From positions 1-64,000 of the forward strand of contig NZ_JAIVMC010000017.1 in assembly GCF_020177265.1 (NCBI RefSeq): DNA of 64,000 nucleotides, in the 5' to 3' direction. Positions within the stretch are counted from its first letter, which is position 1. Each line of letters begins with the position of its first letter. Made by a program: the position numbers and the translations under genes. The notes beneath the pieces are model-generated. The model was not told the DNA's origin, ran no database searches, and saw only the letters and a list, made by a program, of their open reading frames with translations. Source of the DNA: Pseudooceanicola marinus (GTDB lineage: Bacteria > Pseudomonadota > Alphaproteobacteria > Rhodobacterales > Rhodobacteraceae). Positions 1 to 15,993 of the stretch are shown here, in pieces.

Positions 1-102
1 TGGTGCCTGTTGACGGCAGGAGGTCCAACGCGATAGCCCTTGTTTTGCTGACGCGAACCATCGCCGAGGTGCCTGTAGCGGGAACAGAACGAGGCAAGAC
101 CT

Positions 103-187
103 CCGCCCCCGGGCACCATTAAACTCCGGTAACCCATTGGTTTCGCTTCAGCTTCTCGCTTGTGCCAGGAGCCGTAGACCATGTCGG
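103..187 (+). repeat. Left arm of an 85-bp perfect inverted repeat
   Basis: This arm is the exact reverse complement of 1364-1448. It begins with a tRNA-Phe 3'-end-like stretch (CCGCCCCCGGGCACCATT) and ends with a second copy of the integrase start (ATGTCGG at 181-187). It abuts the integrase stop codon at 189. The match breaks immediately outside both ends (102 against 1449, and 188 against 1363). Confidence 0.93.
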
Positions 188-188
188 C

Positions 189-1370
189 TCACGTGACGGC
201 TTTCAGCCACTTCCTCAGAACCTCAGTTGGGTAGCCTCGCCCATAGGCATGGCCCACACCATCGGTCTGCCAGCCGCCGATCTGATCAACGATGTCAGCT
301 GGACATTCGACCGCCCGGAGCCGATCCCGCATGGCATGACGGAAGCCGTGCATCGTGGTCCCCTTAGGCGTGTAGTCTTTCATCCATTTGTTTAGCGCTG
401 CACTCGCTGAATTTGCGTTCGTGGTCTCGCCACTGTTGTACCTTGGGAAGGCATAGACGCTGTCGATCGAGGAAGCGAGGACCCGCTCCGCAGCCCATGC
501 CGCCGCACCTACCAAGGGCACGTCCCTTTCGCTGCCCTTCGTCTTCAAGCGGCGCCAAGGGTGAGGTCGCACTCTCGCAACAAGCTCACCGTCCTCTGAT
601 CGACAGATGTCCTCCTTGAGCAGCCCTGCAGCCTCGGCAAGGCGCATCCCGGTGTCCGAGACCAATGCAACGAGCCACCGAAGCTCATCATCGACGTCGC
701 GACACTTGGCCTGCACAAGAGCAAGTTCCTTCGTCGAGACGGGGGCACGTTCAGCGACGCCAGCTTCCCGGTCGTAATAGATCCGCGTGAATGGGTTGCG
801 ATAGTCCAGACCCAGCTCGCTTGCGGCGAAGTTAGTGACAGACCGGACAGTCCCCAAGACGCGCGTGATCGAACTCCCTGCCAACTTTCGCTCGACCAGA
901 GCGTCCCTGAAGCGGTTCGCGTCGGCCTTGCTGTAGGCATCAATGGGCAAGTCCCCGCAGACGTCGATGACGTAGCCGCAAGACCTCTCCGCAGCCCTCT
1001 TGAAGGTGTCTGGGCGCCCTGCCCCTTTTAGCTTGATGTAAAGAGCGACAGCTTCCGAAAGGCACACGTCCTGCGCTTCAGACTCCACGTCCTGTCGTGG
1101 CGGCGCAGCCGTCGTGTCGCCTCCGCTACGCAGCAGATGCGCACCGGGCAGTGGCATGAGCTGTGTCCGAAGATGATACCAATACTGGTCGAGCTGATCT
1201 GCCGCCTTCCTCGCGCGGGCTTCAGCGACCCGTTCACTGCGGGTTCTGAGCGAATAACAAATACGAGAAGCAGAGTAATGCGACCTCAAAGCAGAGGGCA
1301 CACGGCGGCTGAAGTAGAACACTCCGGCCTTGCGAAAGGTGAACGTGGGGGAGGAAATGGTCTCCGACAT
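189..1370 (-). CDS. Tyrosine recombinase/integrase, DUF6538-type N terminus
   Basis: This is a 393-residue site-specific recombinase. The N terminus (residues about 8-50, FTFRKAGVFYFSRRVP) is the short arm-binding segment seen in many alphaproteobacterial phage-type integrases. The catalytic domain shows the first arginine in DTGMRLAEAAG (about residue 245), the H-x-x-R box HGFR at 341-344, a GGW in place of the usual LGH, and the nucleophilic tyrosine at 376 (GHAYGRGY). Start codon ATG at 1368-1370 lies inside the right inverted-repeat arm; the stop codon lies next to the left arm, so the unique segment is essentially only this gene. The tRNA-Phe-like att core lies about 60 bp upstream of the start. 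It appears intact. Which element it mobilises is unclear, since it lies just outside the 14.6-kb tRNA-Phe element. Confidence 0.93.
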   Translation of the reverse strand: MSETISSPTFTFRKAGVFYFSRRVPSALRSHYSASRICYSLRTRSERVAEARARKAADQLDQYWYHLRTQLMPLPGAHLLRSGGDTTAAPPRQDVESEAQDVCLSEAVALYIKLKGAGRPDTFKRAAERSCGYVIDVCGDLPIDAYSKADANRFRDALVERKLAGSSITRVLGTVRSVTNFAASELGLDYRNPFTRIYYDREAGVAERAPVSTKELALVQAKCRDVDDELRWLVALVSDTGMRLAEAAGLLKEDICRSEDGELVARVRPHPWRRLKTKGSERDVPLVGAAAWAAERVLASSIDSVYAFPRYNSGETTNANSASAALNKWMKDYTPKGTTMHGFRHAMRDRLRAVECPADIVDQIGGWQTDGVGHAYGRGYPTEVLRKWLKAVT

Positions 1371-1448
1371 GGTCTACGGCTCCTGGCACAAGCGAGAAGC
1401 TGAAGCGAAACCAATGGGTTACCGGAGTTTAATGGTGCCCGGGGGCGG
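1364..1448 (+). repeat. Right arm of the 85-bp inverted repeat
   Basis: Reverse complement of 103-187 with no mismatch. It contains the integrase start codon (1368-1370), its 60-bp upstream region, and the tRNA-Phe-like core 1431-1448. Inversion of 188-1363 between the arms would rebuild the same integrase start from the left arm (ATGTCGG joined to AGACC), so both orientations would have the same promoter region. Confidence 0.93.
1431..1448 (+). other. attL-like direct repeat (tRNA-Phe 3' end)
   Basis: The 18-bp sequence AATGGTGCCCGGGGGCGG is identical to 15976-15993, where it is the 3' end of the intact tRNA-Phe gene. Homology to the T arm resumes at 1452-1456 (CGAAC) after three mismatches. 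It marks the left end of the integrated element. Confidence 0.88.
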
Positions 1449-1624
1449 CAGCGAACACATCGATATATGGATCTCACACGAAATCAGGCACACTCACAAA
1501 TTCCAACAGCACCTTAAAAATATAGATCAATAGCAATCAGGGGCTATCAAGGCAGCTCGGGAAATACTACATATCGGGGTGGATTGAGAGGGGGACTGAA
1601 TACGCCCCGCCTGGAGCCCAAGTG

Positions 1625-2815
1625 ATGCCAGCCATGAACCGCCTAAGTGCCCGCGCCCTTCCCAGCCTGCCTCCAGGCAAGCATGCTGACGGCGCCGGCT
1701 TGTGGTTCGTGAAACGAGAGGACGGCGGAGCGCAATGGGTTCTCCGCGTCACCGTTCATGGTCGGCGCCGAGAAATGGGGCTCGGGGCCTATCCCGCTGT
1801 CTCGCTGGCAGATGCACGGCGCAAGGCCGATGAAGCGCGCGCGCAGGTGCGAGAAAATCTGGACCCGATCAAGGAGCGCGAGCGGGCCCGGCGCGAAGCA
1901 TCCAGCAAGCTCCACATTTTGAGCGACGTGGCGGCGGATGCCTTCGAGAGCCGCAAAGCCGAGCTGAAGGGTGACGGCAAGGCTGGCCGCTGGTTCAGCC
2001 CTTTGGAACTTCACATACTGCCCAAGCTTGGCAAGGTGCCGGTTTCGGATCTGGACCAGAAGGATATCCGCGATTGCCTTGCGCCAATCTGGCACACGAA
2101 AGCCGACACGGCGCGGAAAGCGATGAACCGGCTAGCGATCTGCATGAAGCACGCCGCGGCTCTAGGTCTGGACGTAGACCTGCAAGCGACAGACAAGGCC
2201 CGAGCTCTCCTCGGGAAGCAGCGCCATGAAGTCGAGAATATCCCCGCAATGCACTGGCAGGATGTCCCGGGCTTCTATGAGAGCCTTAGCGACGGCACCG
2301 TGACGCATCTGGCCCTCCGCCTTCTAATACTGACCGGAGTGCGCTCCCTCCCCCTTCGCTTCGTGCATGAGAGCCAGCTGGAGGGGGAAATCTGGACGGT
2401 ACCTAGAGAAGCCATGAAAGGTCGCAAGGGCATGACCAGCGATTTCAGGGTCCCTCTGGTTCCTGAGGCTATGGCGGTCATTGAGGAAGCCCGGCGCCAC
2501 TCACGCGACGGCTACCTGTTCCCAAGCATCCGAAAAGGGGTGATTTCGGACGCCACCATGTCACGGCTGATGGAACGGCGCGGCATGGTGGAACGGCCGC
2601 ATGGCTTCCGCTCATCTCTACGAGATTGGCTGGCTGAGGCGACGGACGCCCCACACGAGGTGGCAGAGGCCTGCCTGGGGCACCGGACTGACGGCGCCGT
2701 GGTTCGAGCCTACCGGCGAACAGACTTCCTAGAGCAAAGGCGCGTTCTCATGGGGCGCTGGGCGAAACATGTGACCGGTCAGTCCGGAGTTCTGCTAAAA
2801 GCGGTTGGGGTATGA
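1625..2815 (+). CDS. P4-type tyrosine integrase (DUF4102 arm-binding domain)
   Basis: A 396-residue integrase. The N-terminal arm-binding domain shows the DUF4102 pattern (LPPGKHADGAGLWF, then WVLRVTVHGRRREMGLGAYP and SLADARRKADEAR). The catalytic domain has arginine in LTGVRSLPLRF, H326/R329 in HGFRSSLRDW, H353 in CLGHRTD and the nucleophile Y363 in VRAYRRTD. ATG at 1625 is preferred over the GTG at 1622 or ATG at 1634 because GGAG sits eight bases upstream. It lies 180 bp inside the left att repeat and reads into the element, the usual position for the integrase that made the insertion. The following gene begins three bases after its stop. Confidence 0.95.
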   Translation: MPAMNRLSARALPSLPPGKHADGAGLWFVKREDGGAQWVLRVTVHGRRREMGLGAYPAVSLADARRKADEARAQVRENLDPIKERERARREASSKLHILSDVAADAFESRKAELKGDGKAGRWFSPLELHILPKLGKVPVSDLDQKDIRDCLAPIWHTKADTARKAMNRLAICMKHAAALGLDVDLQATDKARALLGKQRHEVENIPAMHWQDVPGFYESLSDGTVTHLALRLLILTGVRSLPLRFVHESQLEGEIWTVPREAMKGRKGMTSDFRVPLVPEAMAVIEEARRHSRDGYLFPSIRKGVISDATMSRLMERRGMVERPHGFRSSLRDWLAEATDAPHEVAEACLGHRTDGAVVRAYRRTDFLEQRRVLMGRWAKHVTGQSGVLLKAVGV

Positions 2816-2818
2816 CGA

Positions 2819-3808
2819 ATGACCGAGAGCATTGAGAATGCAGCAAGGAAATGTCTCGTAACAGGCATCCAGATTCTTGCGCCGGACTCTCCGGTCGCAA
2901 GGCTTTATCGCGGCGACCTCGAGGGCCGCGACGATGAGAAGGCCGGTCCATGGTACGTCAAGGTCTGCACCAGAACCGGATACTTGCCGGAAACAAGCTT
3001 TGTTGCAGCTTTCCCGGATGAGCAGAGGGCCACTGAATTTGCCAACTTGTACCCCTTGGGCTCTGAAGTGCCCGAAGACGAAGGGGCTTTTACGCTCTTC
3101 GCGCGCGAGATGGAGCGCGAAGACTTTGTGCGGCAAGCGATGGGCGGTGACGTTTTGTTTTCGCGCTTTCTCACTGTCGGCGATGAAGACCTGGGGCTTC
3201 CCTGGTCGATCTTGGCCGCATCCAGTGTGACGGACGAAGTCGGCCTTCACCCTTCTCAACTGGTACTCGACTCTCTTGGAGAGCAGAGAATTCAAGAACT
3301 CCAACTGCAGTTCGGCGAGAATTGGGAGGGTGCCGCGGCATATGAGTACTGCTGGGTGAATCTTCCTCACACTTCTCCGGTCTACATCGCAGCAGCCTGT
3401 AGGTACCACTACTTCATAACGGGTGAGGACTTCTCGGCGGGCTACCTTCTCCGTGACTTGGAGGTCCTGGAGGCCGGAATTGAGATCGAAGCAAGCAATG
3501 CCATCGCAAGACGCAGGAAGGCTGGAGCGAAGGGAAGCGAAAGCTCCTCCCGCTCCAGAAAGGAAAGGAGGGCCAAGCTGATGGACGCACTCGAAAAAGT
3601 TGCTTCAGAAAACCCTGCTATTGCACCGCTACTTGGCCCCAAAGGACTGCTGGCCGCCGCCTTGCCAACGGCGAAATCCGCCGACCCAGCGCTCTGGACG
3701 CAGGGAGAAGGACAAGCGAAAGACTACCTTGACGAGATCCGTCGCGGCGAAGCGGGCAGATCACTAAAGGAGCGCTATCATCAACTCTTCCCCGCCAAAA
3801 CCGCATAG
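2819..3808 (+). CDS. Uncharacterised 329-aa protein coupled to integrase
   Basis: I do not recognise this family. The ATG lies three bases after the integrase stop, so it is probably co-transcribed and translationally coupled. The first 230 residues look like a compact soluble domain rich in acidic and aromatic residues. Residues about 231-255 form a basic, serine-rich linker (SESSSRSRKERRAK), followed by a short helical C-terminal part with LGPKGLLAAALP. There is no signal peptide, membrane segment or obvious catalytic motif. Position beside an integrase is typical of cargo or regulatory genes in islands; no function is assigned. Confidence 0.8.
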   Translation: MTESIENAARKCLVTGIQILAPDSPVARLYRGDLEGRDDEKAGPWYVKVCTRTGYLPETSFVAAFPDEQRATEFANLYPLGSEVPEDEGAFTLFAREMEREDFVRQAMGGDVLFSRFLTVGDEDLGLPWSILAASSVTDEVGLHPSQLVLDSLGEQRIQELQLQFGENWEGAAAYEYCWVNLPHTSPVYIAAACRYHYFITGEDFSAGYLLRDLEVLEAGIEIEASNAIARRRKAGAKGSESSSRSRKERRAKLMDALEKVASENPAIAPLLGPKGLLAAALPTAKSADPALWTQGEGQAKDYLDEIRRGEAGRSLKERYHQLFPAKTA

Positions 3809-3983
3809 GCGGTTAAGGTATCGGGTCTAGTTTCGCTTAGGCAACTCAGATGCCGTCAAGCAGCCGCCCAGCCACTTGGACAGCAGCAAGCGAACCGCAT
3901 AAGCTATTGATTTTAAATATTAACAAAGCGCGGAGGTATCTTCATGCTTCACCTCGTATCAACAAGCATACGAGCCGAGAGCC

Positions 3984-4178
3984 ATGAAAATCACCGACCC
4001 TCTTCTGAACGTCCGAGAATCCGCCGCGCTTCTGCAAGTCAGTGTGCCGACGTTTCATCGTCGCGTCGCTGACGGCACGATCCCGAAGCCCCTCAAGCTC
4101 GGCGCACTGTCGCGCTGGCCTCAGTCGGAAATCCTTCAGGTCATCGAGAACGCAAAGGCGGCACGAGCTGCCGCCTAA
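3984..4178 (+). CDS. AlpA-family helix-turn-helix regulator/excisionase-like
   Basis: A 64-residue protein with the AlpA/MerR-like layout: LLNVRESAALLQVSVPTFHRRV (helix-turn-helix, residues about 7-28), then the wing GTIPKPLKLGALSRWPQSEIL. AlpA proteins control integrase expression or excision in P4-like elements, which fits its place downstream of the integrase. It follows an intergenic stretch of 175 bases (3809-3983) without a gene, which probably holds its promoter. Confidence 0.85.
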   Translation: MKITDPLLNVRESAALLQVSVPTFHRRVADGTIPKPLKLGALSRWPQSEILQVIENAKAARAAA

Positions 4179-4285
4179 CAAAACCGCCACCCCGAGGGGC
4201 GGCGGCGGGACTTTGTTTTCGGCGCTTGGATGCCTGAGAACAATAGCCGAACGCCCTTCGTGTTTCAACAGACACGAGGCCGAGC

Positions 4286-4597
4286 ATGGCACAGAAACGT
4301 TGGGCGAGAGCCCCCTACGAATTCACCGACGAACAAGGCCAGGTCCAGACCGTAATCCTGCATGGGCGTGTCCGGTGGGCAATTGAGGAGCTGCGCAAGG
4401 CGGGGTCCGCCGGCCGCACCGGCAGAGAGGCCCTGGGGCCGCGCTGGGCCGCCTATGTTCACACCGCCAAGAACGTCCACGGCATCCCCATTTACGACAC
4501 CTGGGAATCCCACGAGGGCGAACACCCGGGGCGACACAAGCGCTGGTGGCTGGGCTGCGATATCCGCCCTATCCCCCAGCAGGAGGCCGCAGAATGA
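4286..4597 (+). CDS. Small uncharacterised protein of the element
   Basis: A 103-residue soluble protein (MAQKRWARAPYEFTDEQG...). The segment RVRWAIEELRKAGSAGRTGREALGPR looks like a helix-turn-helix or winged-helix core, and the C terminus KRWWLGCDIRPIPQ could be the strand pair of a wing. This is reminiscent of small phage proteins that control entry into replication functions, but I cannot name the family. Its stop overlaps the start of the next small frame (ATGA at 4594). Confidence 0.72.
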   Translation: MAQKRWARAPYEFTDEQGQVQTVILHGRVRWAIEELRKAGSAGRTGREALGPRWAAYVHTAKNVHGIPIYDTWESHEGEHPGRHKRWWLGCDIRPIPQQEAAE

Positions 4598-4692
4598 TGG
4601 CGCTCCGCATTGCCCGCTTTCGCCACCGCCATGGCTTGAGCAAAGCCGCGGCGGTACTCTTGGCCGCTCTCATCTACGGGGATGCTGATTGA
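4594..4692 (+). CDS. Very small coupled protein (32 aa)
   Basis: A 32-residue frame beginning with ATGATGGCGCTC and overlapping the previous stop by four bases (ATGA), which suggests translational coupling. The product is basic at the N terminus (ALRIARFRHRHGLSKAA) followed by a short hydrophobic helix (AVLLAALIYG). Function unknown. Support is the overlap and the coding-like composition only. Confidence 0.5.
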   Translation: MMALRIARFRHRHGLSKAAAVLLAALIYGDAD

Positions 4693-4909
4693 TGGCGCCC
4701 CTCAGCCCTCCCTGCCCTTCGACCAGGCGGACCGTCACGCGGCCCGGCCCTTCGTTGCCTCTCTGCTGCCCGTCGCGGGCGGCCCGAAACCCCAACGAAA
4801 CAGGCGTGCATTGGAGGTCCATGCCGCTGAGGCGAAGCTGCCCTTGCCGCAGATCGAAGGGGAAGCGCATGACCGAGCACGATGGAAACGCCGAGCCACG
4901 GCGCCCTAA
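4682..4909 (+). CDS. Small uncharacterised protein (75 aa)
   Basis: The frame starts at ATG 4682, overlapping the end of the 32-aa frame, and reads MLIDGAPQPSLPFDQADRHA... The other frame through this DNA (from 4689) is rich in serine, proline and cysteine and looks less natural, apart from its end. No domain recognised; the product is proline- and arginine-rich. It could be a small phage accessory protein. Confidence is limited because two frames compete. Confidence 0.45.
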   Translation: MLIDGAPQPSLPFDQADRHAARPFVASLLPVAGGPKPQRNRRALEVHAAEAKLPLPQIEGEAHDRARWKRRATAP

Positions 4910-4937
4910 GAAATGGAGGGCTGGCGATGGGGCGTGA
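4869..4937 (+). CDS. Possible 22-aa leader peptide before the winged-helix gene
   Basis: A short frame MTEHDGNAEPRRPKKWRAGD with GAAGGGGAAG just upstream of the ATG. Its stop (TGA 4935-4937) lies inside the start of the winged-helix gene at 4927, so translation could couple the two. It is the better-looking tail of a longer competing frame from 4689. Evidence is the ribosome-binding site and overlap only. Confidence 0.3.
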   Translation: MTEHDGNAEPRRPKKWRAGDGA

Positions 4938-5415
4938 CAAGCGAAATGAGGAGAAGGTCGAGCACTTTACGAAGATGGTGCGCCCCCTGATGCAGTCAGA
5001 AGCATGGCGCGCACTGTCGACCACAGCCCAAGCCCTCTATCCTTGGATCAAGTTCGAGTGGCGCGGCCCCAAGGCGAACAACAACGGCAAGCTGAGCCTC
5101 TCGGTCAGGCAGGCTGCGGAGTGTCTGGGCGTTAACCGAAAGACGGCCGCGCGCGCATTCCACGACCTCCAAGCGAAGGGTTTTCTCGTGCAAACCCACC
5201 CCGGTTGCCTAGGTGTTGGCGGCGAAGCTAGGTCGCCGACATACGAGGTGACCGAGCTTGCCTTGGCTGGTCACACGACCGGACGTCGCCTGTATCGAGA
5301 CTGGGTGAATGGCCACGACTTCCCGGTAAAGACCATCCCATCGAACAATCCAGGCGGTCGAAATGGCAGGGCGCCAGCCGCCAATGTGGTTCCCATCAAA
5401 GGCGGAAACCGGTGA
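4927..5415 (+). CDS. Winged-helix/HTH protein, possible replication or control protein
   Basis: A 162-residue protein starting ATGGGGCGTGAC with GGAGGG upstream. Residues about 60-90 form a helix-turn-helix (SVRQAAECLGVNRKTAARAF followed by HDLQAKGFL) of the type found in plasmid and phage replication or regulatory proteins. The N-terminal part (MVRPLMQSEAWRALSTTAQ) is a pattern I associate with small alphaproteobacterial phage/plasmid proteins. Five iteron-like repeats begin 18 bases after its stop, which makes it a candidate to bind them. Whether it initiates replication or represses transcription cannot be told from sequence. Confidence 0.78.
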   Translation: MGRDKRNEEKVEHFTKMVRPLMQSEAWRALSTTAQALYPWIKFEWRGPKANNNGKLSLSVRQAAECLGVNRKTAARAFHDLQAKGFLVQTHPGCLGVGGEARSPTYEVTELALAGHTTGRRLYRDWVNGHDFPVKTIPSNNPGGRNGRAPAANVVPIKGGNR

Positions 5416-5432
5416 CTGAAAAAGGAAAACCC

Positions 5433-5573
5433 CGTCATCCTTTTGGGGACGGTCCTGTCATACTTTTGGGGACGGCAACGGCCGCCCCTGTCATCCTTTT
5501 GGGGACGCCCTGTCATACTTTTGGGGACGGAAACGGCACTTTTCGACACCTTCCCTGTCATACTTTTGGGGAC
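5433..5573 (+). repeat. Five iteron-like repeats, consensus TGTCATMCTTTTGGGGAC
   Basis: Direct copies start at about 5433, 5456, 5489, 5511 and 5556, each about 18-19 bp and nearly identical (A or C at position 7; the first copy starts CGTC). Start-to-start distances are 23, 33, 22 and 45 bp, close to 2, 3, 2 and 4 helical turns, so all sites face about the same side of the helix. They are in non-coding DNA between the winged-helix gene and the DUF2786 gene. This suits a replication origin or a multi-site operator. Confidence 0.88.
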
Positions 5574-5785
5574 ATCCTTAATCTACCAGGGGGTACAGGA
5601 ACTTGCATCCAGACCTCTCCCAAGCCCGGAGGCTGTTCGGCGCCCGGAGAACGCTCGAGGAAGTGCCACCCGAACGCTGAACACCGCCACCTTTCCGCAA
5701 GTGGTCTGGCCTTCACCCGCATCTCCACCCAGCCGCGCTCGGCGCGAGTAGAAGAGCAGTGGCTCGTATGAAGGATAGTTCATCC

Positions 5786-6703
5786 ATGTTGGACACCGAG
5801 AAGCTCCGTCGGCTCCAATCCCTGATGGCCAGGGGGGCCACCGAAGGAGAGAGAAGCGCAGCGCGGGGGCGGGCAGAGATGCTGGCCCAGCGCGCCGGGC
5901 TCTCACTAAGTGACGCCCTGTCCAAACTGGACGAGCAACCCGCCGCGAAGCCCAAGGGAATGTTCGATGGCTTCGATGATTGGATGGAGGCGAAGGAGCC
6001 AGGCTGGAAGGCTCGCAGTGCAGTCGAGAGAGCCCAGCGCGAAGCCGCACGCCTGAACCGGTGTGAGGAGCTTCTACGTGAATTCGGCTCTGAAGAGGCA
6101 GTATTTGCCGAGACGGCTGAAGAGGCGGCGCTTCGGAAGGCCTTGGCGCCCCTCGCGGACAAGACGAAGGGTTTCTCTGGGTTCGATGGCTGGGTCAGCG
6201 GCCGGCCAACGGAGGCCATGTGGAAGGCTATGGGTGCCGCCCTGCCGTTCCCGGAGACCGTACAAGGTGCTCTCGATGAGCTGAGGGGCCTGGAAGGGCT
6301 CACTGATGCCCGCTGTGCGTTCTTCCCGGATTATTCCGAGGGAGACCACGTCTACGCCCGCATATGCGCCCTCACGGCGCTTCTGGACGGCATGTCGGAT
6401 CCAACGGAGGCCGGAATAAGGACGCGCTTGAAGTGGATTGCTGACATTGCGCACAGCGAGATCGCCCGCGACCCCGGTTACGACCAGGAACTTGCTGCGA
6501 CATTACAGGCAGATTTCGAGCTGTTCACCCGATCGCGCGGGAAAAACACGCGGCGCGCCAGCAGAGCAGAGCGGCAAACGGAAATCGTGTCCATGTTGCG
6601 CGCTCACCCTGACCTCCCGGACCGCGAGATAGCGCGGCGCATCGGATGCAGCCCTCAGACAGTAGGGAACTGGCGCCGGCGCCTTGCGAAGGGGCATTCG
6701 TGA
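5786..6703 (+). CDS. DUF2786-containing protein with C-terminal HTH
   Basis: About 305 residues. The start MLDTEKLRRLQSLMARGATEGE with ERSAARGRAEMLAQRAGLSL matches the N-terminal DUF2786 signature, often found in phage and plasmid proteins. The C terminus has a resolvase/Mu-type helix-turn-helix (DLPDREIARRIGCSPQTVGNW) followed by basic residues RRRLAKG, so it probably binds DNA. ATG 5786 is chosen because DUF2786 starts there and GGA precedes it; GTG 5759 and ATG 5768 are alternatives. It follows the iteron-like repeats directly, so expression could be controlled by whatever binds them. Confidence 0.8.
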   Translation: MLDTEKLRRLQSLMARGATEGERSAARGRAEMLAQRAGLSLSDALSKLDEQPAAKPKGMFDGFDDWMEAKEPGWKARSAVERAQREAARLNRCEELLREFGSEEAVFAETAEEAALRKALAPLADKTKGFSGFDGWVSGRPTEAMWKAMGAALPFPETVQGALDELRGLEGLTDARCAFFPDYSEGDHVYARICALTALLDGMSDPTEAGIRTRLKWIADIAHSEIARDPGYDQELAATLQADFELFTRSRGKNTRRASRAERQTEIVSMLRAHPDLPDREIARRIGCSPQTVGNWRRRLAKGHS

Positions 6704-6784
6704 GACGGCAAATCAGCTCGAGCTGACCCGTGCCTCAATCTGATACGCGGGCCGTTTCCCAACTCGGTCAGGCTCAGTCGAAAC

Positions 6785-6895
6785 GTTGCGCGACCAGTAC
6801 GCGCGCACGCGCGCGAGACTGAGTTACCAATACGCGCGCGCGAGGCGGGAAGATTTTTCGGAAGTCTGTACGCGACCAATTCGCGCGCGCGAGGC
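6785..6895 (+). repeat. Three alternating CG tracts in a short repeated context
   Basis: Three copies of CCARTWCGCGCGCGCGAG-like sequence at about 6794-6817, 6827-6844 and 6876-6894, the first extended by an extra CGCA. Each has 10-16 alternating C/G bases, the type of sequence able to adopt Z-DNA. They overlap a degenerate terminase-like region, so they may also be remnants of coding repeats (arginine-alanine). Confidence 0.6.
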
Positions 6896-7045
6896 GACAC
6901 CTTGGAGGCGGCAATCCGGGCCGGATACAGCGAAAAGACAGCGCATTCCCAAGGCCCGCGCCTGTTGGAGAATGTTGACATCGATTCAGCGATTGCGGTG
7001 GCGGAAGCCGTAGGCTCAGAGCAGACCGGAAGGACATGGGAATGA
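6845..7045 (+). pseudogene. Fragments of phage small terminase subunits
   Basis: Two partial matches lie in different frames. At 6833-6890 one frame reads ARREDFSEVCTRPIRA, matching the gp3-type packaging protein fragment at 15208-15495 (KREDFFPVCTRV). At 6902-7045 another reads LEAAIRAGYSEKTAHSQGPR then LLENVDIDSAIAVA, a typical Terminase_2 N-terminal helix-turn-helix. Neither has a good start codon or full length (a TTG at 6902 is possible for the second). The second frame overlaps the next gene by ATGA at 7042, suggesting it was once translated. Confidence 0.6.
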
Positions 7046-7281
7046 CAGCAGGACACGTTGAGATCGCATCGGGCATCATCAGTTCGCAAGAGCATCACAG
7101 CGCCCAAGGCAAGCAAATGCTGTTCAAGCACATCGGGGAGCGCTGGTTCTTCGTGGATGCGGTGGAGGCAGATGGGGGCCGCGTGTCGCTCTGGGATGGG
7201 CCCGCCTATGAAGCGGCAATCTTCGAGGCCGAGGTCTGCGCCCGCGAAGGTTGGGGGCCGGTGTTGGATCTGGTCCTCTGA
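7042..7281 (+). CDS. Small uncharacterised protein (79 aa)
   Basis: Starts at ATG 7042 (GGAAGG eight bases upstream; ATG 7036 is too close to that site). The product, MTAGHVEIASGIISSQEHHS..., contains a beta-rich core with ERWFFVDAVEADGGRVSLWDG and an acidic end. No family recognised. The overlap with the terminase-like fragment suggests it belonged to a phage packaging-region operon. Confidence 0.65.
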   Translation: MTAGHVEIASGIISSQEHHSAQGKQMLFKHIGERWFFVDAVEADGGRVSLWDGPAYEAAIFEAEVCAREGWGPVLDLVL

Positions 7282-7407
7282 GACTTCGCCGCCGGCCGGA
7301 GCGGTCCTGGACCCTAAGATGACCCTAAGACCCTGAGGTTACCCTGAGGTTCGCCCGAAGGCGAATGGGGTGGTGTCGGGCCCCATACCTAGGCGAGGTG
7401 GGGCGCT

Positions 7408-7839
7408 CTAGCTGCAGGGGAAAGCCTCCATCAGCGCATTCCAGATCAAGCCCCTTGCAGGGAAATGTCTGCTCTCAGGGTGGTCAGATAGGTATCGAAC
7501 GACGATATCCCGAAGCTGCTCATTCGTCGCGTCGCTGGGGATGCAGTGCGCCAGAAAGGCGTTGATGGCACTATTGCTCTCATCTGTCGTCTGACCGGGC
7601 ATGAGGCGCTGAATCACGATGAACGCACCAAAGCTCTCCCCTTCGATCGCTCCGAGAACGAAGCCTACGCAAAAGCCAAGCTCGACGCCACTCTCTGAAC
7701 GGCAAGCTGAATAAAGCGAGTTGCCAGATACCTGTTGTGCTTTCGACGGGTGCGGATACCAAGCGAACGCCAAAGCTAGAATGGCGGCGAGGCCAATGCC
7801 TCTCCTGGACTGGCAGGCCCCGACGCTTCGTGTTGACAT
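7408..7839 (-). CDS. Rap1a/Tai-family immunity-like secreted protein
   Basis: A 143-residue protein with a hydrophobic signal segment (GLAAILALAFAWYP, cleavage probably after SKA). The mature part has the Rap1a/Tai pattern: NSLYSACRS, then ELGFCVGFVLGAIEG, then HCIPSDATNEQLRDIVVRYL and a terminal ALMEAFPC. Rap1a proteins are periplasmic immunity partners of type VI amidase effectors, but the domain is widespread in orphan genes. Four cysteines are placed to form disulphides. Its start directly follows the stop of the upstream small secreted protein (TGAATG), so the two are an operon. No effector gene is visible nearby. Confidence 0.8.
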   Translation of the reverse strand: MSTRSVGACQSRRGIGLAAILALAFAWYPHPSKAQQVSGNSLYSACRSESGVELGFCVGFVLGAIEGESFGAFIVIQRLMPGQTTDESNSAINAFLAHCIPSDATNEQLRDIVVRYLSDHPESRHFPARGLIWNALMEAFPCS

Positions 7840-8049
7840 TCAGTCACCCTCTGAAGTGCATTGGACGGTCAGCGCGCCACTCCCGTCTCTCGACGGCGCG
7901 CAAAAGGTTACAGATCCCGTCTCTGTGTTGACGATGTAGACGCCTGGGCCGCCACCTTGCGCAACGGCCGTGAACGCTGCGCGGTCATCTGCGCCGCTCA
8001 CGGCAGGCGTCATGAGCATGGTTGCTGAAGCGATTGCCAACAGTCGCAA
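7840..8049 (-). CDS. Small secreted protein upstream of the Rap1a-like gene
   Basis: 69 residues with an N-terminal signal peptide (MRLLAIASATMLMTPAVSGA) and a short mature part with two cysteines (VTFCAPS and VQCTSEGD). No family recognised. Its stop is immediately followed by the start of the Rap1a-like gene, so they are likely made together. The mature part (GVYIVNTETGSVTFC) resembles small periplasmic beta-strand proteins of unknown role. Confidence 0.68.
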   Translation of the reverse strand: MRLLAIASATMLMTPAVSGADDRAAFTAVAQGGGPGVYIVNTETGSVTFCAPSRDGSGALTVQCTSEGD

Positions 8050-8151
8050 TGTCGTTCTCCCCTTATCAAGTTTGATGCATTCAACCTGCGCGCAGATGTC
8101 GGCTCAGGCAATAGGGAGACACGCGAGGAGCGTAGCGCCTTGGGCAGCGAC

Positions 8152-8388
8152 CTAGTCTCGCGACGCCGCAATCAGAGCAATGCCCGGACCCTCTGAGGTC
8201 TCGCCAGGAGAGAGGAACTGCACGCCTCTGGCTTCGAGCGTCATCTGAACGAGCTTCACAGTCGATGGCTTGCCCTCGCCTCGGTCCACCTTGTTCAGGG
8301 TGTTGCGATGCAATCCAGTCAGCCCCGCAAGTTCAGGGTTACTCATCCCAAGCGCAGCTTTAGCCATTTTGAATTGCTCTGATGTCAC
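8152..8388 (-). CDS. XRE-type helix-turn-helix regulator
   Basis: 78 residues. The motif QFKMAKAALGMSNPELAGLT then GLHRNTLNKVDRGEGKPS is a classic XRE helix-turn-helix, followed by TVKLVQMTLEARGVQFLSPG, the usual C-terminal strand of small phage repressors. It lies upstream of, and in the same direction as, the two secreted-protein genes, with about 100 bases between, and divergent from the plus-strand genes at 8562 onward. Confidence 0.82.
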   Translation of the reverse strand: MTSEQFKMAKAALGMSNPELAGLTGLHRNTLNKVDRGEGKPSTVKLVQMTLEARGVQFLSPGETSEGPGIALIAASRD

Positions 8389-8561
8389 GTCGCTTCCTTT
8401 CGTGTGCTACCGGCATATTTAATGTGTTGACAGAACAGCCTGACAGACCCATAAATATGCCAATAGCACACGCCAACAGGCGGCGCTATTCAAATTCAAA
8501 GCACCAAGTTCCCGCTTCAAGAGCCTGGGGAACGTCATCTCAAGAACAGGAAGGAAAGGCT

Positions 8562-8729
8562 ATGCCGACCAATACCCCGCCCATCGCGCGTGAACCGCGT
8601 GGCGAACTCCATGACTGTATCGCCTTGGCTTTGGACGCGATCTGCGCTCCGAGCCCGAGCGAGCGGAACCTGATCGAAGCCCGGGGCTACCTGCGGGCTG
8701 CCATCAGCCGGATCGGGGGTGCAGCATGA
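8562..8729 (+). CDS. Small uncharacterised protein (55 aa)
   Basis: Start ATG 8562 follows AGGAAAGG. The product MPTNTPPIAREPRGELHDCI... is a short amphipathic helix protein (ALALDAICAPSPSERNLIEA). Its stop overlaps the next start (ATGA at 8726), making a three-gene coupled set with the two signal-peptide paralogues. Function unknown. Confidence 0.62.
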   Translation: MPTNTPPIAREPRGELHDCIALALDAICAPSPSERNLIEARGYLRAAISRIGGAA

Positions 8730-9025
8730 AGCGCCGCTCCTTCATCGCCTCCGCTACGGCGCTCGCCTTCGCCCCTATCGCGTCCAAGTCGGCTGAGCCG
8801 AGCGTCACTGACCAGATCCAGCACCATGCCGACGAGCTGGTGCGCCTCCTGTCCGAGAGCGCCCCCGAGGGCATCAATGATGTTCAGCAAGTGGTCATCA
8901 CCCCGGCATTCCTGATCGCGTCTGCTTTCCCTGGGGTGGCTGATCTGCGGTCCTGGCAGGAAGGCGATATGACCGCGAACTATCGCCATGGTCGTGGTTG
9001 GAAAACCGAAGGGGGTGCAGCATGA
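8726..9025 (+). CDS. Signal-peptide protein, tandem paralogue 1
   Basis: 99 residues beginning MKRRSFIASATALAFAPIAS, a Tat-like leader (RRSFI followed by a hydrophobic run). The mature part has DQIQHHADELVRLLSESAPE then GINDVQQVVITPAF and ends RSWQEGDMTANYRHGRGW. Clearly paralogous to the next gene (same leader; ...HHADELVRLLSESAPEGI against ...HIEAIREALLEHAPDGVT). Overlaps it by ATGA. No family recognised. Confidence 0.7.
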   Translation: MKRRSFIASATALAFAPIASKSAEPSVTDQIQHHADELVRLLSESAPEGINDVQQVVITPAFLIASAFPGVADLRSWQEGDMTANYRHGRGWKTEGGAA

Positions 9026-9348
9026 AGCGCCGCGAGTTTTTCGCCGCCAGCGCGGCCCTTGCTCTGGCCCCCGTCGCGGCGCCGGCCGTCGAAGTCCAGA
9101 ACATTCCCGAAGACTGGGCACGGGACGAACTGAACACGAAGCTGGCCTATCACATCGAGGCGATCCGCGAGGCGCTTCTGGAGCACGCACCCGACGGCGT
9201 GACCAGCATGCAAGGCATCCAGCTGCGTTGGATCGACGGGAAGCCGACCGGCGTCTGGGCGACGGGCCGCGAGGGTCTCGGGGCACTGCAGAACTACCGC
9301 CCTGAGAGCGGGTGGCGCCAGAAATCAGCGGTCCTGCTCCCCGTGTAA
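9022..9348 (+). CDS. Signal-peptide protein, tandem paralogue 2
   Basis: 108 residues beginning MKRREFFAASAALALAPVAA, a Tat-like leader matching the preceding gene. The mature part includes KLAYHIEAIREALLEHAPDG, MQGIQLRWIDGKPTGVWATG and a closing YRPESGWRQKS. It is a diverged duplicate of the upstream gene, translated from an overlapping ATGA. Export of two related small proteins from a phage-like element is unusual; possible roles are superinfection exclusion or lysis control, but nothing proves this. Confidence 0.7.
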   Translation: MKRREFFAASAALALAPVAAPAVEVQNIPEDWARDELNTKLAYHIEAIREALLEHAPDGVTSMQGIQLRWIDGKPTGVWATGREGLGALQNYRPESGWRQKSAVLLPV

Positions 9349-9430
9349 CGCAAGTCCCGGCGGCAAACGTATAAGCCTGAGACCACCCCCGACCGAACTC
9401 CGGCCGGGGGTGGATTGTTTCTGGGTGAGG

Positions 9431-9721
9431 TTAGGCGGCTTGCAGGGGCCTGATGCCCGAGACGTCCACTTGATCGCGATTGGAGATCAGATCGAAGTTC
9501 TTCTGCATGTTGAGCCAGTAGTCAGGCGTGGTGCTGAAGAACTTGGCAAGCCGAAGGGCGGTGTCCACGGACATGGAAACGTCCAGCTTGCACAGTCGCT
9601 CGATGCGGGTGCGCGGCACCCCTAGGCGCTTTGCAAGGGCGATGGGGCTCATCTCGAGCGGGTCAAGATACAGTTCGCGCAGGATCTCACCGGGGTGAAC
9701 CGCAACTTTCATCATGGTCAT
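9431..9721 (-). CDS. higA: HigA-type antitoxin (XRE)
   Basis: 96 residues. The motif VHPGEILRELYLDPLEMSPI then ALAKRLGVPRTRIERLCK is the diagnostic HigA/VapI start and helix-turn-helix, followed by SVDTALRLAKFFSTTPDYWL and NMQKNFDL. It neutralises the HigB toxin encoded just upstream and represses the operon. ATG 9721 is chosen because AGGAG lies seven bases upstream. The toxin-first gene order is typical of higBA. Confidence 0.92.
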   Translation of the reverse strand: MTMMKVAVHPGEILRELYLDPLEMSPIALAKRLGVPRTRIERLCKLDVSMSVDTALRLAKFFSTTPDYWLNMQKNFDLISNRDQVDVSGIRPLQAA

Positions 9722-9733
9722 GTTCGGCTCCTT

Positions 9734-10015
9734 TCAGTGGTAGTCGATAATCTCAACGTCTTCTGGACCAGTCGAGGTCCACACAAAGCAGATGCGCCAC
9801 TGGCCATTGATCCGGACGGAGTGCTGTCCAAGCCGGTTCCCGGCAAGTTGCTCAAGGTGATTTCCAGGCGGAAACCGAAGGTCCTCCAGCTCGTGCGCGG
9901 CATCCAGGGCGGCCATCATGGCATTGGTCCGATTAACCAGGTCAGCTGGAAACCCCTTGCCGTACTTCCCTTCTAAGGCGCGTTTGGCAAGCTTGCCCTT
10001 GGTGCTTTGTATCAT
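9734..10015 (-). CDS. higB: HigB/RelE-type mRNA interferase toxin
   Basis: 93 residues of the RelE superfamily. HigB signatures include LRFPPGNHLEQLAGNRLGQH and SVRINGQWRICFVWT, ending DVEIIDYH. It cleaves mRNA in a ribosome-dependent way in characterised systems. The gene is first in the operon, 12 bases before higA, and its start codon is four bases from a perfect palindrome likely bound by HigA. In the element it may serve for maintenance. Confidence 0.92.
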   Translation of the reverse strand: MIQSTKGKLAKRALEGKYGKGFPADLVNRTNAMMAALDAAHELEDLRFPPGNHLEQLAGNRLGQHSVRINGQWRICFVWTSTGPEDVEIIDYH

Positions 10016-10018
10016 GGA

Positions 10019-10032
10019 GTGATACGTATCAC
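10019..10032. promoter_or_regulatory. Palindromic operator of higBA
   Basis: GTGATACGTATCAC is a perfect 14-bp palindrome four bases upstream of the higB start codon. A partial GAGATAC copy follows at 10036-10042. HigA-type antitoxins bind such palindromes to repress their own operon; binding here is inferred from position. Confidence 0.75.
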
Positions 10033-10059
10033 GTTGAGATACATGCAGTCAACCGATCA

Positions 10060-10335
10060 TTGACCCGTCGCGCCGACAAGTTCTGTCAAATTTCGACCTC
10101 GAACGACGACAAGCGCCGCGCGGTGATGACGCTGCTTGAGGATGAGGAGTGGACCCAGTGGTCGGACCGCCAGTGCCGTGTTTCTGCCCCGCTTGTCGCG
10201 ACCGTTCGGGCTTCCGTCACTGTAAATTCTTACAGTGAGCCACGCACATATAAGACCAAGCATGGCACTGAAGCCAGGATGAACACCGCCAATATCGGCA
10301 GAAACGCAATCGGTGGCAAGACCCCCAAAACCTGA
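10060..10335 (+). pseudogene. Fragment of a ParB-like phage/plasmid protein
   Basis: The frame reads DDKRRAVMTLLEDEEWTQWS then DRQCRVSAPLVATVRASV and later RTYKTKHGTEARMNTANIGR. This pattern (KRRAV-LL-D-EW--WSDREIA, variable linker, RTY-TKHGT---MNTA-IG) is the middle part of ParB/Srx-type proteins of phages and plasmids. The N-terminal ParB-nuclease domain is missing and only a TTG start is available. The IAR-G core of the helix-turn-helix is damaged (QCRVS). It is best read as a gene remnant. Confidence 0.62.
10218..10237. promoter_or_regulatory. Inverted repeat CACTGTAA-N4-TTACAGTG
   Basis: Eight-bp perfect arms separated by ATTC. It lies within the ParB-like remnant, about 215 bases upstream of the HTH gene at 10452. 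The symmetry looks like a repressor site, but no regulator can be assigned. Confidence 0.45.
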
Positions 10336-10451
10336 GTGATACACAGGGCTTCACCAAGCGCTGAGGCCGAAACAGCAAAGCAATCGCTCGCTCACAGTTC
10401 GGCGCCGCCACGTCCGCCCACCGGAACCACCAAAGCCATTGAGGAAAACCC

Positions 10452-10640
10452 ATGACCACCCCCGCTACCTTCCGCCCCGCCGATTCCCCCAAGGTCGTCG
10501 GGATCTCGCGCGCCACGCTCTACCGCTGGGAGAAAGCTGGTCACATCAAGCTCTATCGCCAAGGCGGGATGACCTTCGCCAAAACCGCAGAGGTGGTCGA
10601 TTTCATCACCGGCGATTGTACAGAGGCGGGCCCGACCTGA
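10452..10640 (+). CDS. MerR/AlpA-like helix-turn-helix protein
   Basis: 62 residues. VVGISRATLYRWEKAGHIKL followed by YRQGGMTFAKTAEVVDFITG is a MerR-type winged helix of the kind used by excisionases and small phage regulators. ATG at 10452 starts right after GAGGAAAACCC. A second, diverged AlpA-like protein in the same element (first at 3984) suggests separate control of integration and of this module. Confidence 0.78.
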   Translation: MTTPATFRPADSPKVVGISRATLYRWEKAGHIKLYRQGGMTFAKTAEVVDFITGDCTEAGPT

Positions 10641-10653
10641 GCGTTGCCTTCGC

Positions 10654-10705
10654 TCGCGTACAGACTGCAAAAAAACCTTCCCGCTTGGCTTAATTGTCCC
10701 AGGTC
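10654..10705 (-). pseudogene. Small terminase fragment, inverted copy of 15270-15321
   Basis: On the minus strand this 52-bp stretch reads TWDN-stop-AKREGFFAVCTR, matching the plus-strand fragment TWDNYAKREDFFPVCTR at 15270-15321 with about five base differences. The TAA in place of TAC shows it is broken. Together the two copies form an inverted repeat around the ejection-protein genes. Confidence 0.65.
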
Positions 10706-10839
10706 GAGCCCGGCAAAGCCGCCCCAGGCGAGAACATTTGGGGCCAAATAGGGAATATAGACAGAACATGTTGTGGGAAATCTGCTCGTTTTAGCCTACA
10801 CTGGTGCTGACTTTCATCGTCAGACTTGGATTGCAGGCA

Positions 10840-11010
10840 ATGACCGACAAACACCCAGATTGCGAACGCCGTTCCGGCGAAGAAGCCCGCCAATCAGGCG
10901 GCGCCTCCCCCTTGTTCCCCGAGCTCTTCCAGCGGGGCTGGCGGGAGTTCCTGCGGTGGGAACAGATGATGCAGGCGCCGTTTGATCCGCGCACTGACCG
11001 CATCCACTAA
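10840..11010 (+). CDS. Small uncharacterised phage protein (56 aa)
   Basis: MTDKHPDCERRSGEEARQSG... ending LFQRGWREFLRWEQMMQAPF. Short, charged, with an aromatic helix at the C terminus. It lies 15 bases upstream of the first ejection-like protein, with GGGAGGG between, so it probably forms an operon with the two large genes. Family unknown. Confidence 0.6.
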   Translation: MTDKHPDCERRSGEEARQSGGASPLFPELFQRGWREFLRWEQMMQAPFDPRTDRIH

Positions 11011-11025
11011 GGGAGGGCTCTAACC

Positions 11026-12423
11026 ATGGCAGACCTGAACCCGAGCATCATCCTCGCCGGCCAGCCGGTCAACGCGCTGAATGCGCTGTCGGGCGGCATC
11101 CAGACCGCGGGGCAGGCGAACGACGTCCGGCACACGTCGAACTACCGCAACACGCTGGCGCAGTACGGCGCGGGCGCCATCGGAGGCGACCAGGGGTCGA
11201 TCAACGCGTTGGCAGGCTTCGACCCCGGCGCGGCGCTGGGCATCCAGCAGACCCGGCAGCAGATGGACATTCTCGACGCCCAGGAGCGCAGGGCAGCGGC
11301 CAAGTATGCCGCCAGCCTTTCGGCGGCACGTCGCAGCGCCGTAGCACAGGAGGTCGAGGGCGCTGTGAAGGTGGGGCTTGGCCTTCAAGACAAGGACGCC
11401 TGGGACGCCTTCATGGGCGAGAACCAACCCGATCTCGTCGGCCAGTTCGAGAATCGCCAGGCTCTGGCGAACCGCTACATGAGCGTCGCGGATATCCTGA
11501 GGAACAGCAGGGAACCCGACCCCATCGTCATCAACGGCCAGCTGGTCAACCCGCGCACCTCGGAAATCCTCGGGGACTACCGAGACGACGCCGAGCCGGT
11601 GTCCCCGGACTATGTCGAAATGAACGGTCAGCTGGTGGATCGCAACGCCCGGGGCGGCCCTGCCGTGGTGCCGGTGCAGGGCCTCCAGCCGGAGCCCATC
11701 AAACAGACGGAAGCCGACCGAGAACTGGCCCGGATGGAGAGTATCGGCATTCCGCGTGACGTAGCCATCCGGATCAAGGAGGGCGTGTACCGGGTCGTAA
11801 CCGACCCGCTTACCCGAGAGACCTCGGTCATGGACCTGTCGAGCGGAAAGACCATTCTCGACGCGACGCACAGCGCGAACATAGGTCCTTCGCCTTCAGG
11901 TCAGGTCAGCAACCAGACTGCTCCCGCTCTCTCGTTCGGGCCTGATGTCTCAGGCGATGCGGGGCAATCCTTCGGTGTCGAGGGCTTCGCCAAAGCGGGT
12001 ATCAATGCGCTGGGAGATGCGGTGGGGCTTGGCCCAGCCTACCCGGATGTGCAGGAAACCCAATCCGACTTCATGGTCCTGCGCGAAACCTTGCTGAACG
12101 ACGTAGCTGGGGCCTATGACCGGCAGCCGCCGGGCTGGCTTATGGAGAACATCCGGGATCTGACCCCGGAGCCCGGGCGCCCCCTGCAAGGCGCGAGTGG
12201 GGCGCAGTCGAAGTTGCGGGCTCTGAAGCGGAACTTCGAGAGCGAGCTGAACATCGCCCAGCAGCAGGCCGGTCGCCGTCTCTCGCCAACACAGCGTCAA
12301 GACCTTGAGACCCGCATCATCGGCTTGGAGGCGACCATTCGCCGGGTGGACGGCGCACTGGCGCGCTTCGGCAGTGACCAGCAGCAACGCACATCGAATG
12401 GCATCACCTGGAGCATTGAGTAA
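11026..12423 (+). CDS. Putative phage DNA-ejection/internal virion protein 1
   Basis: 465 residues beginning MADLNPSIILAGQPVNALNA, an N terminus I associate with podovirus-like internal virion or DNA-ejection proteins of Rhodobacteraceae phages. The first 110 residues are helical and alanine-rich (LGIQQTRQQMDILDAQERRA). A repeat-like pair follows (VINGQLVNPRTSEILGDYRD and VEMNGQLVDRNARGGPA), then a linker and a helical C terminus (LKRNFESELNIAQQQAGRRL). It ends TAATG into the next gene. Family assignment is by resemblance and not certain. Confidence 0.72.
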   Translation: MADLNPSIILAGQPVNALNALSGGIQTAGQANDVRHTSNYRNTLAQYGAGAIGGDQGSINALAGFDPGAALGIQQTRQQMDILDAQERRAAAKYAASLSAARRSAVAQEVEGAVKVGLGLQDKDAWDAFMGENQPDLVGQFENRQALANRYMSVADILRNSREPDPIVINGQLVNPRTSEILGDYRDDAEPVSPDYVEMNGQLVDRNARGGPAVVPVQGLQPEPIKQTEADRELARMESIGIPRDVAIRIKEGVYRVVTDPLTRETSVMDLSSGKTILDATHSANIGPSPSGQVSNQTAPALSFGPDVSGDAGQSFGVEGFAKAGINALGDAVGLGPAYPDVQETQSDFMVLRETLLNDVAGAYDRQPPGWLMENIRDLTPEPGRPLQGASGAQSKLRALKRNFESELNIAQQQAGRRLSPTQRQDLETRIIGLEATIRRVDGALARFGSDQQQRTSNGITWSIE

Positions 12424-14984: not shown

Positions 14985-15207
14985 CAGCAAACGAAAGCAC
15001 CGGGGTCCGGGTTGATGAGCTTTCGGCGACTGGGGCGGCTCAGCTAACCATGCCGCATGGCGCGAGGTTCCTTCCTCGTGGAAGCTCGATTTGACCGCAA
15101 TAAAGCCTTGATCCCATATTATCGAGCTTGCCAGATGAGCAATCGGGTCCGGCGATAGCAAGAAGACAGCCGCCCCAGCAGGGCAGCCGCATGTTGATAA
15201 ATGTTAA

Positions 15208-15495
15208 GGTGGCGGAGGCCATCTCGACCCTATCGAGGGCCTGTGCAACTTCCTCGATATCAGCCGCCGGACCTGGGACAATTACGCCAAGCGGGAAGAT
15301 TTTTTCCCAGTCTGCACGCGAGTGGAGCAACCAACCGTCGATTGCGTCATCTTCACCACGCGCCGCTCGACCAGGCGTCACCCAGGAGAACCTCAGATCG
15401 AAAAGGCGATTGTCGCTTCTCCAAGTCTCCGTCGCAGAGCTCCGGCTGGGGCAGGACCCGCCCTCAGCCCGAGACCTTTCCGGCCGCCTCAGTAA
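15208..15495 (+). pseudogene. gp3-type small terminase fragment
   Basis: The frame opens after a TAA at 15205-15207 and reads DPIEGLCNFLDISRRTWDNY then AKREDFFPVCTRVEQP, which resembles the DNA-binding core of gp3-type packaging proteins (GLC-FLGIS--TW--Y). After about residue 45 the sequence turns to non-homologous basic residues. There is no start codon for the conserved part. A truncated remnant, part of an inverted repeat with 10654-10705. Confidence 0.65.
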
Positions 15496-15752: not shown

Positions 15753-15975
15753 GAGAATCTCCTTTCCTGCTCTCGCAGCTCAGCATGACAGAGGAGAAAA
15801 GCGTTCCCGATGCACAGGAGGCTATGATGAAGATGGGAAGCGAGCTTGGGGCGGCACCATGCGGACCGACGCCCCTTGATAGCCCCTAGCGCCCCGCAAA
15901 GAGGTGGATAAAAAGGGGGATTGGAAATCCAGAAATCCCGGTAACAGACGAAAAACAAACGACTATTTCCGGAAA

Positions 15976-15993
15976 AATGGTGCCCGGGGGCGG
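15976..15993 (+). other. attR-like direct repeat in the tRNA-Phe 3' end
   Basis: AATGGTGCCCGGGGGCGG, identical to 1431-1448. It covers the CCA end and acceptor/T-arm bases of the tRNA, so integration kept the tRNA gene complete. Confidence 0.88.

Follow-up and report, generated by a model that had tools for sequence, protein, structure and literature searches.

Why would a mobile element hold its integrase gene between two perfectly inverted copies of the gene's own start? This question is raised by a contig of Pseudooceanicola marinus, of which we analyzed a stretch of 64,000 nucleotides, referred to as the window. Window base 1 is also the first base of the contig (C17; 64,362 bp). The features on which the argument rests are the following:

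1–102, plus strand: X, the core-near P arm of an inverted attP copy (attP2); identical to C8:1–102, the attR end on another contig, with the remainder past the contig end
103–118, plus strand: core of attP2, identical to the tRNA-Phe 3' end, CCGCCCCCGGGCACCA
103–187, plus strand: left arm of the perfect inverted repeat, with core, P' arm and int nucleotides 1–7 (ATGTCGG)
172–183, plus strand: copy of the putative arm-type site P'1 in attP2, CCGTAGACCATG, with no adjoining P'2 (sequence motif)
189–1370, minus strand: int1, a DUF6538 tyrosine integrase of 393 aa (open reading frame and profile match)
1356–1364, minus strand: putative arm-type site P'2, GAGACCATT, in int codons 3–5, at the int start only (sequence motif)
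1364–1448, minus strand: right arm of the inverted repeat, with int start, P' arm and core
1368–1379, minus strand: putative arm-type site P'1, CCGTAGACCATG, overlapping the int start codon (sequence motif)
1433–1448, minus strand: core joining the element of int1 to element A, in direct orientation relative to the tRNA-Phe 3' end
1449–15977, no strand assigned: element A, the second island, separating int1 from tRNA-Phe, its extent judged from two direct cores
15978–16052, minus strand: tRNA-Phe (GAA), the attachment gene

The two arms are 85 nt each, 100% complementary and spaced by 1176 nt, and the int gene lies in between. A chance origin is excluded, since the second-longest inverted pair within the first 4 kb measures 21 nt at 81%. 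A reading made from the sequence only had described the arms as base-for-base alike, each holding the int start region, its upstream DNA and a tRNA-Phe 3'-end core in opposite orientations; this was confirmed, and each arm consists of the core CCGCCCCCGGGCACCA, the int leader and the initial 7 nt of int. The same reading counted two att cores. Both are indeed present, but they are not equivalent: the left one lies in an inverted attP that lacks P'2, and at the right one the element meets the neighboring island. On the plus strand, positions 1–187 run X, core and P' arm, inverted behind the int stop codon, and read as the core-near portion of an attP, the P sites of which would be expected past the contig end. 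In many relatives X contains the conserved motif GTGCCTGTA.CGGGAA. Perfect matches to CCGCCCCCGGGCACCA occur four times in the genome (C17:103–118 plus, C17:1433–1448 minus, C17:15978–15993 minus and C8:103–118 plus), the third being the tRNA-Phe 3' end, and a fifth site, on C6, has one mismatch.

The int1 protein matches PF00589 (Phage_integrase; E 2e-10) and PF20172 (DUF6538). Residues R243, H341, R344, H345, W367 and Y376, which we take to be catalytic, are invariant in the integrase alignment; int1 is a tyrosine recombinase with a catalytic domain. Its element stands in tandem with element A, the cores of which are in direct orientation and which has an integrase of its own (1622–2815, plus strand, Arm-DNA-bind_3) and a short ORF (3984–4178) that presumably is AlpA-like. 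Fossils of the int1 element family mark several tRNA genes. At window 63237–63375, the int start and arm recur as a decayed second copy that has a core of tRNA-Thr type (CCGTGTGGGGGCACCA) and is adjoined by two small ORFs that we assume to resemble a toxin–antitoxin pair. Another decayed int start and arm sits directly behind tRNA-Thr (CGT) in the same genome (L010; C5:128292–128517).

Where is the rest of the element? Window 1–119 is identical to the opening 119 bases of contig C8. Exactly 119 opening bases are shared in 11 pairs of readable contig ends, and a further three contigs have ends that overlap one another by 119 bases. This implies that the assembly derives from a graph with k=119 and that window 1–119 marks the edge of a repeat. 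After the core, C8 continues into long open frames of chromosomal look, and we take C8:1–118 as the putative attR of the window's element. The remainder of that element is in no readable contig of its genome and may belong to contigs whose bases are given as N; no circle junction was found in the readable contigs.

A complete element is present in the finished megaplasmid NC_008043.1 of Ruegeria sp. TM1040. On the int side its order is tRNA-Phe, core–arm, int and inverted arm–core–X, with identical arms of 85 bp; then follow bro, type I restriction-modification genes, a SprT-family protease, a helicase-like protein of 636 aa, a second bro, X and core. The X copies with the 16 bp core extend over 1148 bp at 0 differences, and both bro genes are filed under one protein accession. 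The element has a single integrase and long internal repeats. Altogether, six elements show both an arm pair and an X pair: TM1040, L217, L218, L223 and two in the closed genome G113 (G113a and G113b). The pairs of L217 (L. aquimarina) measure 75 bp at 100% for the arms and 1053 bp at 98% for X, those of L218 (L. aquaemixtae) 85 bp at 98% and 233 bp at 96%, and those of L223 (genome G267) 88 bp and 3183 bp, both at 100%, with a full helicase gene in each X copy. The G113 elements, at tRNA-Thr and tRNA-Ser, have arms of 244 and 121 bp at 100% and X copies of 686 bp at 98% and 729 bp at 95%; a third int is located at the tRNA-Ser locus. At the right end of L218 follow about 50 bp that resemble an arm, and this element may be a tandem remnant. 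An element at tRNA-Leu has arms of 181 bp and no long X pair. Boundaries vary by clade, with arms from 75 to 265 bp and X from 233 to 3183 bp.

The integrated layout is thus tRNA, core–arm–int–arm'–core'–X'–cargo–X–core and flank. As its three cores are in the orientations plus, minus and plus, they correspond to attL, an inverted attP (attP2) and attR. The core equals the tRNA 3' end and recurs directly at both element ends, in the window at 1433–1448 with C8:103–118, and likewise in TM1040, L223, L217, G113a and G113b. We deduce that a circle formed from attL and attR would hold two inverted attPs, which would split the int half from the cargo half. The int module is open to cargo as well: in G113 a hemerythrin-domain gene separates int from the inverted arm (L219 10198–10779). 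The G267 cargo (L223 6476–12924) comprises two large convergent ORFs that have an identical C-terminal part inside the 3183-bp inverted repeat; the one that was scanned contains RTX repeats.

How widespread is this arrangement? It was first met in relatives in the same-genus genomes G003, G021 and G001, the last with unlike arms at a tRNA-Phe. A scan of GTDB contigs then yielded 74 loci, including the same-genus assemblies L134, L136 and L163; 35 of them (L134–L166, L170, L187) match over about 380 or more of the 393 residues and are counted as full length, not all of them intact, as L142 has two in-frame stops. Sought beside the DUF6538 integrases of other genomes, the same arrangement was found in many Rhodobacterales: in 30 of the 35 full-length loci an inverted pair of 41–113 bp surrounds int (41 bp in L139, 47 bp in L159, 67–113 bp in the other 28). 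In L141, 23 bp of the pair are left before other DNA begins, the contigs of L152 and L166 stop at the gene start and the gene end so that no pair can be read, and the full-length matches L142 and L165 showed no inverted repeat. Nor was a convincing pair seen in the 39 partial matches.

A kin search of 29 loci (L018–L046, 1.5 kb flanks) returned the pair in three, all close relatives, and in none of the 26 more distant integrases or remnants with the same flanks. A further set of 15 (L223–L237) has it in 13, the exceptions being L228 and L234; these sets must not be summed because they share some contigs (for example, L224 is L150). Among viral contigs, none of 87 stretches with the pattern was confirmed as a relative, and a phage search gave three weak matches. 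A plasmid search returned 28 records, with a query coverage of at least 80% in TM1040 only. At least 9 of the 35 full-length contigs stop 48–227 bp past the int match (L137, L139, L145–L147, L149, L160–L162); a repeated P arm that breaks assemblies is the probable cause. Int1-type elements are a mobile DNA family of mostly marine bacteria; they are seldom seen whole and have likely been missed in surveys, a possible blind spot.

The two attPs of an element differ in one respect that proves important. At the int start, P'1 (CGTAGACCATG) runs across the start codon and P'2 (GAGACCAT) occupies codons 3–5, their first bases 13 bp apart. The inverted copy ends immediately ahead of P'2, which is missing from it in 28 of 29 decidable loci, with L160 as the exception and L140, L157, L170 and L187 left out as undecided. 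On the other side of the core, P sites were sought by pattern in the 26 loci in which X extends over 110 bp or more: by this pattern, 16 have two CGTAGACCA-like P sites 12 bp apart at 98–136 bp from the core, two have a single copy and eight have none. P'1 departs from ACC in 10 loci, and in seven of these the variable bases of P'2 are identical (L153, L154, L157, L158, L159, L161 and L163, with L162, L164 and L223 disagreeing). The X sites follow these variants in part: L154, L157, L158 and L223 do so fully or in a mixed way, L162 does not. We infer that the P and P' motifs bind Int.

Orientation is equally asymmetric. A tRNA adjoins int in 61 of the 74 loci, with none called by ARAGORN in the other 13, and all 61 have it beside the int start. 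In this count truncated remnants are biased by search patterns placed in the N-terminal half of Int, and full-length loci are not. Its distance to the int match is exactly 62 positions in 34 of the 61. L200 has an extra tRNA-Cys on the opposite side, 825 bp behind the match. Both the fixed tRNA side and the P'2 asymmetry suggest that integration is confined to the attP beside the start of int; the latter points this way because attP2 lacks P'2 in all but one decidable locus.

Within an element the copies are kept alike. Leaving out L134, L139, L159 and L187 with their truncated or unclear arms, the two arms of a locus have a median identity of 100% (exactly 100% in 19 of 28, lowest 90%), compared with a median of 54% across loci (378 pairs). 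In five chosen close pairs we asked whether ungapped differences between loci appear in both arms: they do in 2 of 2 for L134/L136, 5 of 6 for L147/L151, 7 of 8 for L144/TM1040 and 11 of 11 for L137/L138; L145/L148, with 0 of 4 in both arms and 4 in one arm, counts against concerted copying. The X copies are mosaic. In G113a a single difference lies within 546 bp of the core and 14 lie farther out; in G113b the first 320 bp are free of differences and 34 follow. L217 shows the reverse, with 24 differences within 57 bp of the core and 0 beyond, and L218 has 10 in the first 28 of 233 bp. Arms, cores and long X tracts are alike within most elements and divergent between them, including elements with different tRNA targets.

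The cores follow the tRNA as well. The terminal 14 nt of the neighboring tRNA were compared with the inverted copy in 30 loci, two of which (L134, L139) have contigs that end ahead of the core; 23 of the 28 testable ones match exactly, over eight kinds of tRNA. The inexact copies have 1 (L151), 2 (L148), 4 (L164), 5 (L187) and 6 (L159) differences, and no core is visible in the last two. A quick tree was made of 45 integrases, of which 44 were labeled with 12 kinds of target, and it requires at least 23 changes of target. Shuffled labels gave a mean of 25.6 changes and a minimum of 22, with 17 of 200 shuffles at 23 or fewer. This tree includes the contig shared by L150 and L224 and the long rows L235 and L161, and the labels of L134, L136, L141 and L223 come from partial flanking tRNA sequence, not from a tRNA call. 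Closely related pairs illustrate the pattern: L137 (tRNA-Arg) and L138 (tRNA-Thr), each recorded under the name Shimia gijangensis, differ in their cores, as do L144 (Thr) and TM1040 (Phe), and in each case the core is matched in both arms. Along its tree the int1-type lineage appears to switch targets in a nearly random manner, and the att copies follow.

What mechanism could produce such a pattern? The reading that we prefer, with a probability of roughly 0.5, sees the window as the integrase end of a tRNA-targeted element that integrates via the attP at the int start and whose inverted copies rewrite one another, a process by which the att sites would go on fitting the current tRNA. Integration would proceed only through attP1, the site at the int start that includes P'2, placing int about 62 bp behind the tRNA, a distance at which tRNA transcription could read into int. 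Gene conversion or inversion would recombine the inverted copies with each other, perhaps while the element is a circle or replicates, and their pairing would hand on the core that stems from the tRNA, from attL to attP2 to attR: the arm repeat would pass the attL core to attP2, and the X repeat would pass it on to attR. The selected effect would be a matched att set after a change of target, with an address that fits the occupied tRNA and target changes that soon become fixed. Layout, identity of the copies and target changes are what the comparison of loci shows, and it is from these that we infer copying and selection. Several points stand against the copying model. Repeats with one-sided homology would need a mechanism, yet to be demonstrated, for passing on a core. 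Further points are the five inexact cores, the one-arm differences of L145/L148, the reversed mosaic of L217, the arm-like right end of L218, the full-length matches L142 and L165 without a repeat and L141 with 23 bp of it, the disagreement of P and P' sites in L162, L164 and L223, and the eight loci in which the pattern found no P site.

A bolder version of the preferred reading, which we put forward only tentatively, is that of a self-retargeting element: twin inverted att sites would write the 3' end of the current tRNA into the element's own attP and attR, and the lineage would move freely among tRNA genes. The prevailing view is that tRNA-targeted integrases stay with a single target. If the bolder version is true, an integration-competent attP1 with P'2 and a template attP2 that lacks it would amount to a new route for evolving target specificity. 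Most full-length members have an inverted spare attP, and the switching of att sites by integrases becomes a testable question.

The main rival borrows from the yeast 2-micron plasmid and its FLP recombinase. Here, inversion during replication, driven by Int or by homologous recombination, would lead to a double rolling circle and amplify the element before transfer. The deduced circle of the six whole elements indeed has a recombinase gene between two long inverted repeats that contain the recombinase site, and in all six a large ATPase-like gene (helicase-like, polymerase-like or other), hereafter called replication-type, lies in or beside a repeat. Across species this gene is found on differing sides, as inversion of the cargo could produce: L135, L140, L150, L151, L157, G113a and G113b have it at the int-side repeat, TM1040 and L144 at the far one, and L223 at both. 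We had considered the helicase strands as proof of isomerization through cargo inversion, and this argument was weakened by the helicase in both repeats of L223 and the fragments elsewhere. Since L223 has two full copies and four others (TM1040, L157, G113a, G113b) retain a fragment of the second, both repeats may once have borne the gene, and the sides may differ by loss. Moreover, no single genome contains a pair of isomers, and a symmetric inversion device would not be expected to show the P'2 asymmetry. On balance we regard this reading as rather unlikely.

As to the replication-type genes themselves, one helicase family is tied to int1-type elements (L216 21640–23550; also L223, L135, L144, L150, L151 and L171). 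It has no match in Pfam, PHROGs, NCBIfam or PDB sequences, and its predicted fold (mean pLDDT 66.7) resembles DinG/XPD helicases. A relative with 37% identity is encoded on the Azospirillum brasilense plasmid NZ_CP032346; a search of 22 genomes of the window's own genus, run without a positive control, gave no match. The protein of L157 12034–13572 matches PHROG 4756, a family of unknown function. We take this protein and that of L098 1–220 to have polymerase-A-like motifs; such a protein stands in for the helicase in these other elements.

Could the repeat simply be passive, an ancient inverted duplication with no function that ordinary homologous recombination keeps alike? The variation of its boundaries and lengths between clades would fit such a history, and the mosaic differences in X are compatible with gene conversion. 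However, a functionless long repeat should be lost more often than is seen, given its presence in 30 of 35 full-length matches and its absence from all 26 of the more distant integrases and remnants; we find this explanation unlikely and somewhat more doubtful than isomerization. Control at the RNA level, with an int 3' flank complementary to int's own leader and start codon that blocks translation of read-through transcripts, is improbable. In the main clade the copy does span the leader and ATGTCGG, often beginning 1–4 nt past the stop codon. Yet in L157 and L217 the repeat stops ahead of the called start codon, about 400 bases to more than 1 kb separate int from the copy in L138, L153, L158, L164 and G113a, and the copy extends as an attP with P-arm sites, which RNA pairing would not need.

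The sequence-only reading had proposed that int itself flips through the two inverted cores and thereby alters what it reads into. The cores are inverted and the arms would restore an identical int start, but flipping in place found no support: the orientation is fixed in all 61 loci with a tRNA, the attPs are asymmetric in P'2, and the window contig continues unbroken through both arms, where a common second isomer should have broken it at k=119. We consider this very improbable. Least credible of all is the assembly fold-back that had been named as the plain alternative: the left arm does start only 102 bases from the contig end, but the 119-nt overlap of contig ends, from which we derive the k of an assembler that is not named, exceeds the 85-nt arm and makes an artefact in the window unlikely, and for the family a fold-back is refuted by a layout that recurs with other sequences in separate assemblies, one of them a finished replicon.

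With the copying of inverted att sites as the preferred reading, how does the int1 family relate to known systems? That no integrase module of such symmetry had been described agrees with our searches of the openly licensed literature: judged by title or abstract start, no layout with int between inverted attP copies was met, no paper on DUF6538 was found, and titles on two inverted attPs concerned a serine integrase (PMC3556126) and fly engineering only. The closest kin are tRNA-targeted islands with a tyrosine integrase (P4-, SLP1- and tycheposon-like), with the same tRNA 3'-end core, int beside the tRNA and a lambda-like attP with paired arm sites on either side. Their familiar members have one attP, which is split on integration; in the int1 family a further attP lies inverted behind int, and at attR the P arm recurs as a second inverted copy. 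In the yeast 2-micron plasmid, FRT sites within inverted repeats divide the circle, which includes the FLP gene, into two halves; the deduced circle of the int1 family likewise has a recombinase gene and two inverted repeats that hold the recombinase site. Unlike that plasmid, the family is bacterial, integrates at tRNA genes and has two sites made inequivalent by P'2, and inversion or amplification is only hypothesized. Invertons, which are invertible DNA switches, also have inverted recombination sites around a recombinase gene; a second orientation, sought among relatives, was seen in none of the 61 int1-type loci with a tRNA, where the tRNA is never on the int-stop side. Strand-biased circularizing integrative elements (SEs), described as having imperfect 19-bp end repeats and two integrases, intA and intB, are likewise atypical tyrosine-recombinase elements with inverted repeat motifs (PMC9345347). 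Membership in the SEs was considered and rejected, as by those features the TM1040 element, with one integrase and long internal repeats, falls outside them (PMC9345347). Compared with SEs as described there, the repeats of the int1 family are tens to thousands of bp long, flank int internally and hold the att sites.
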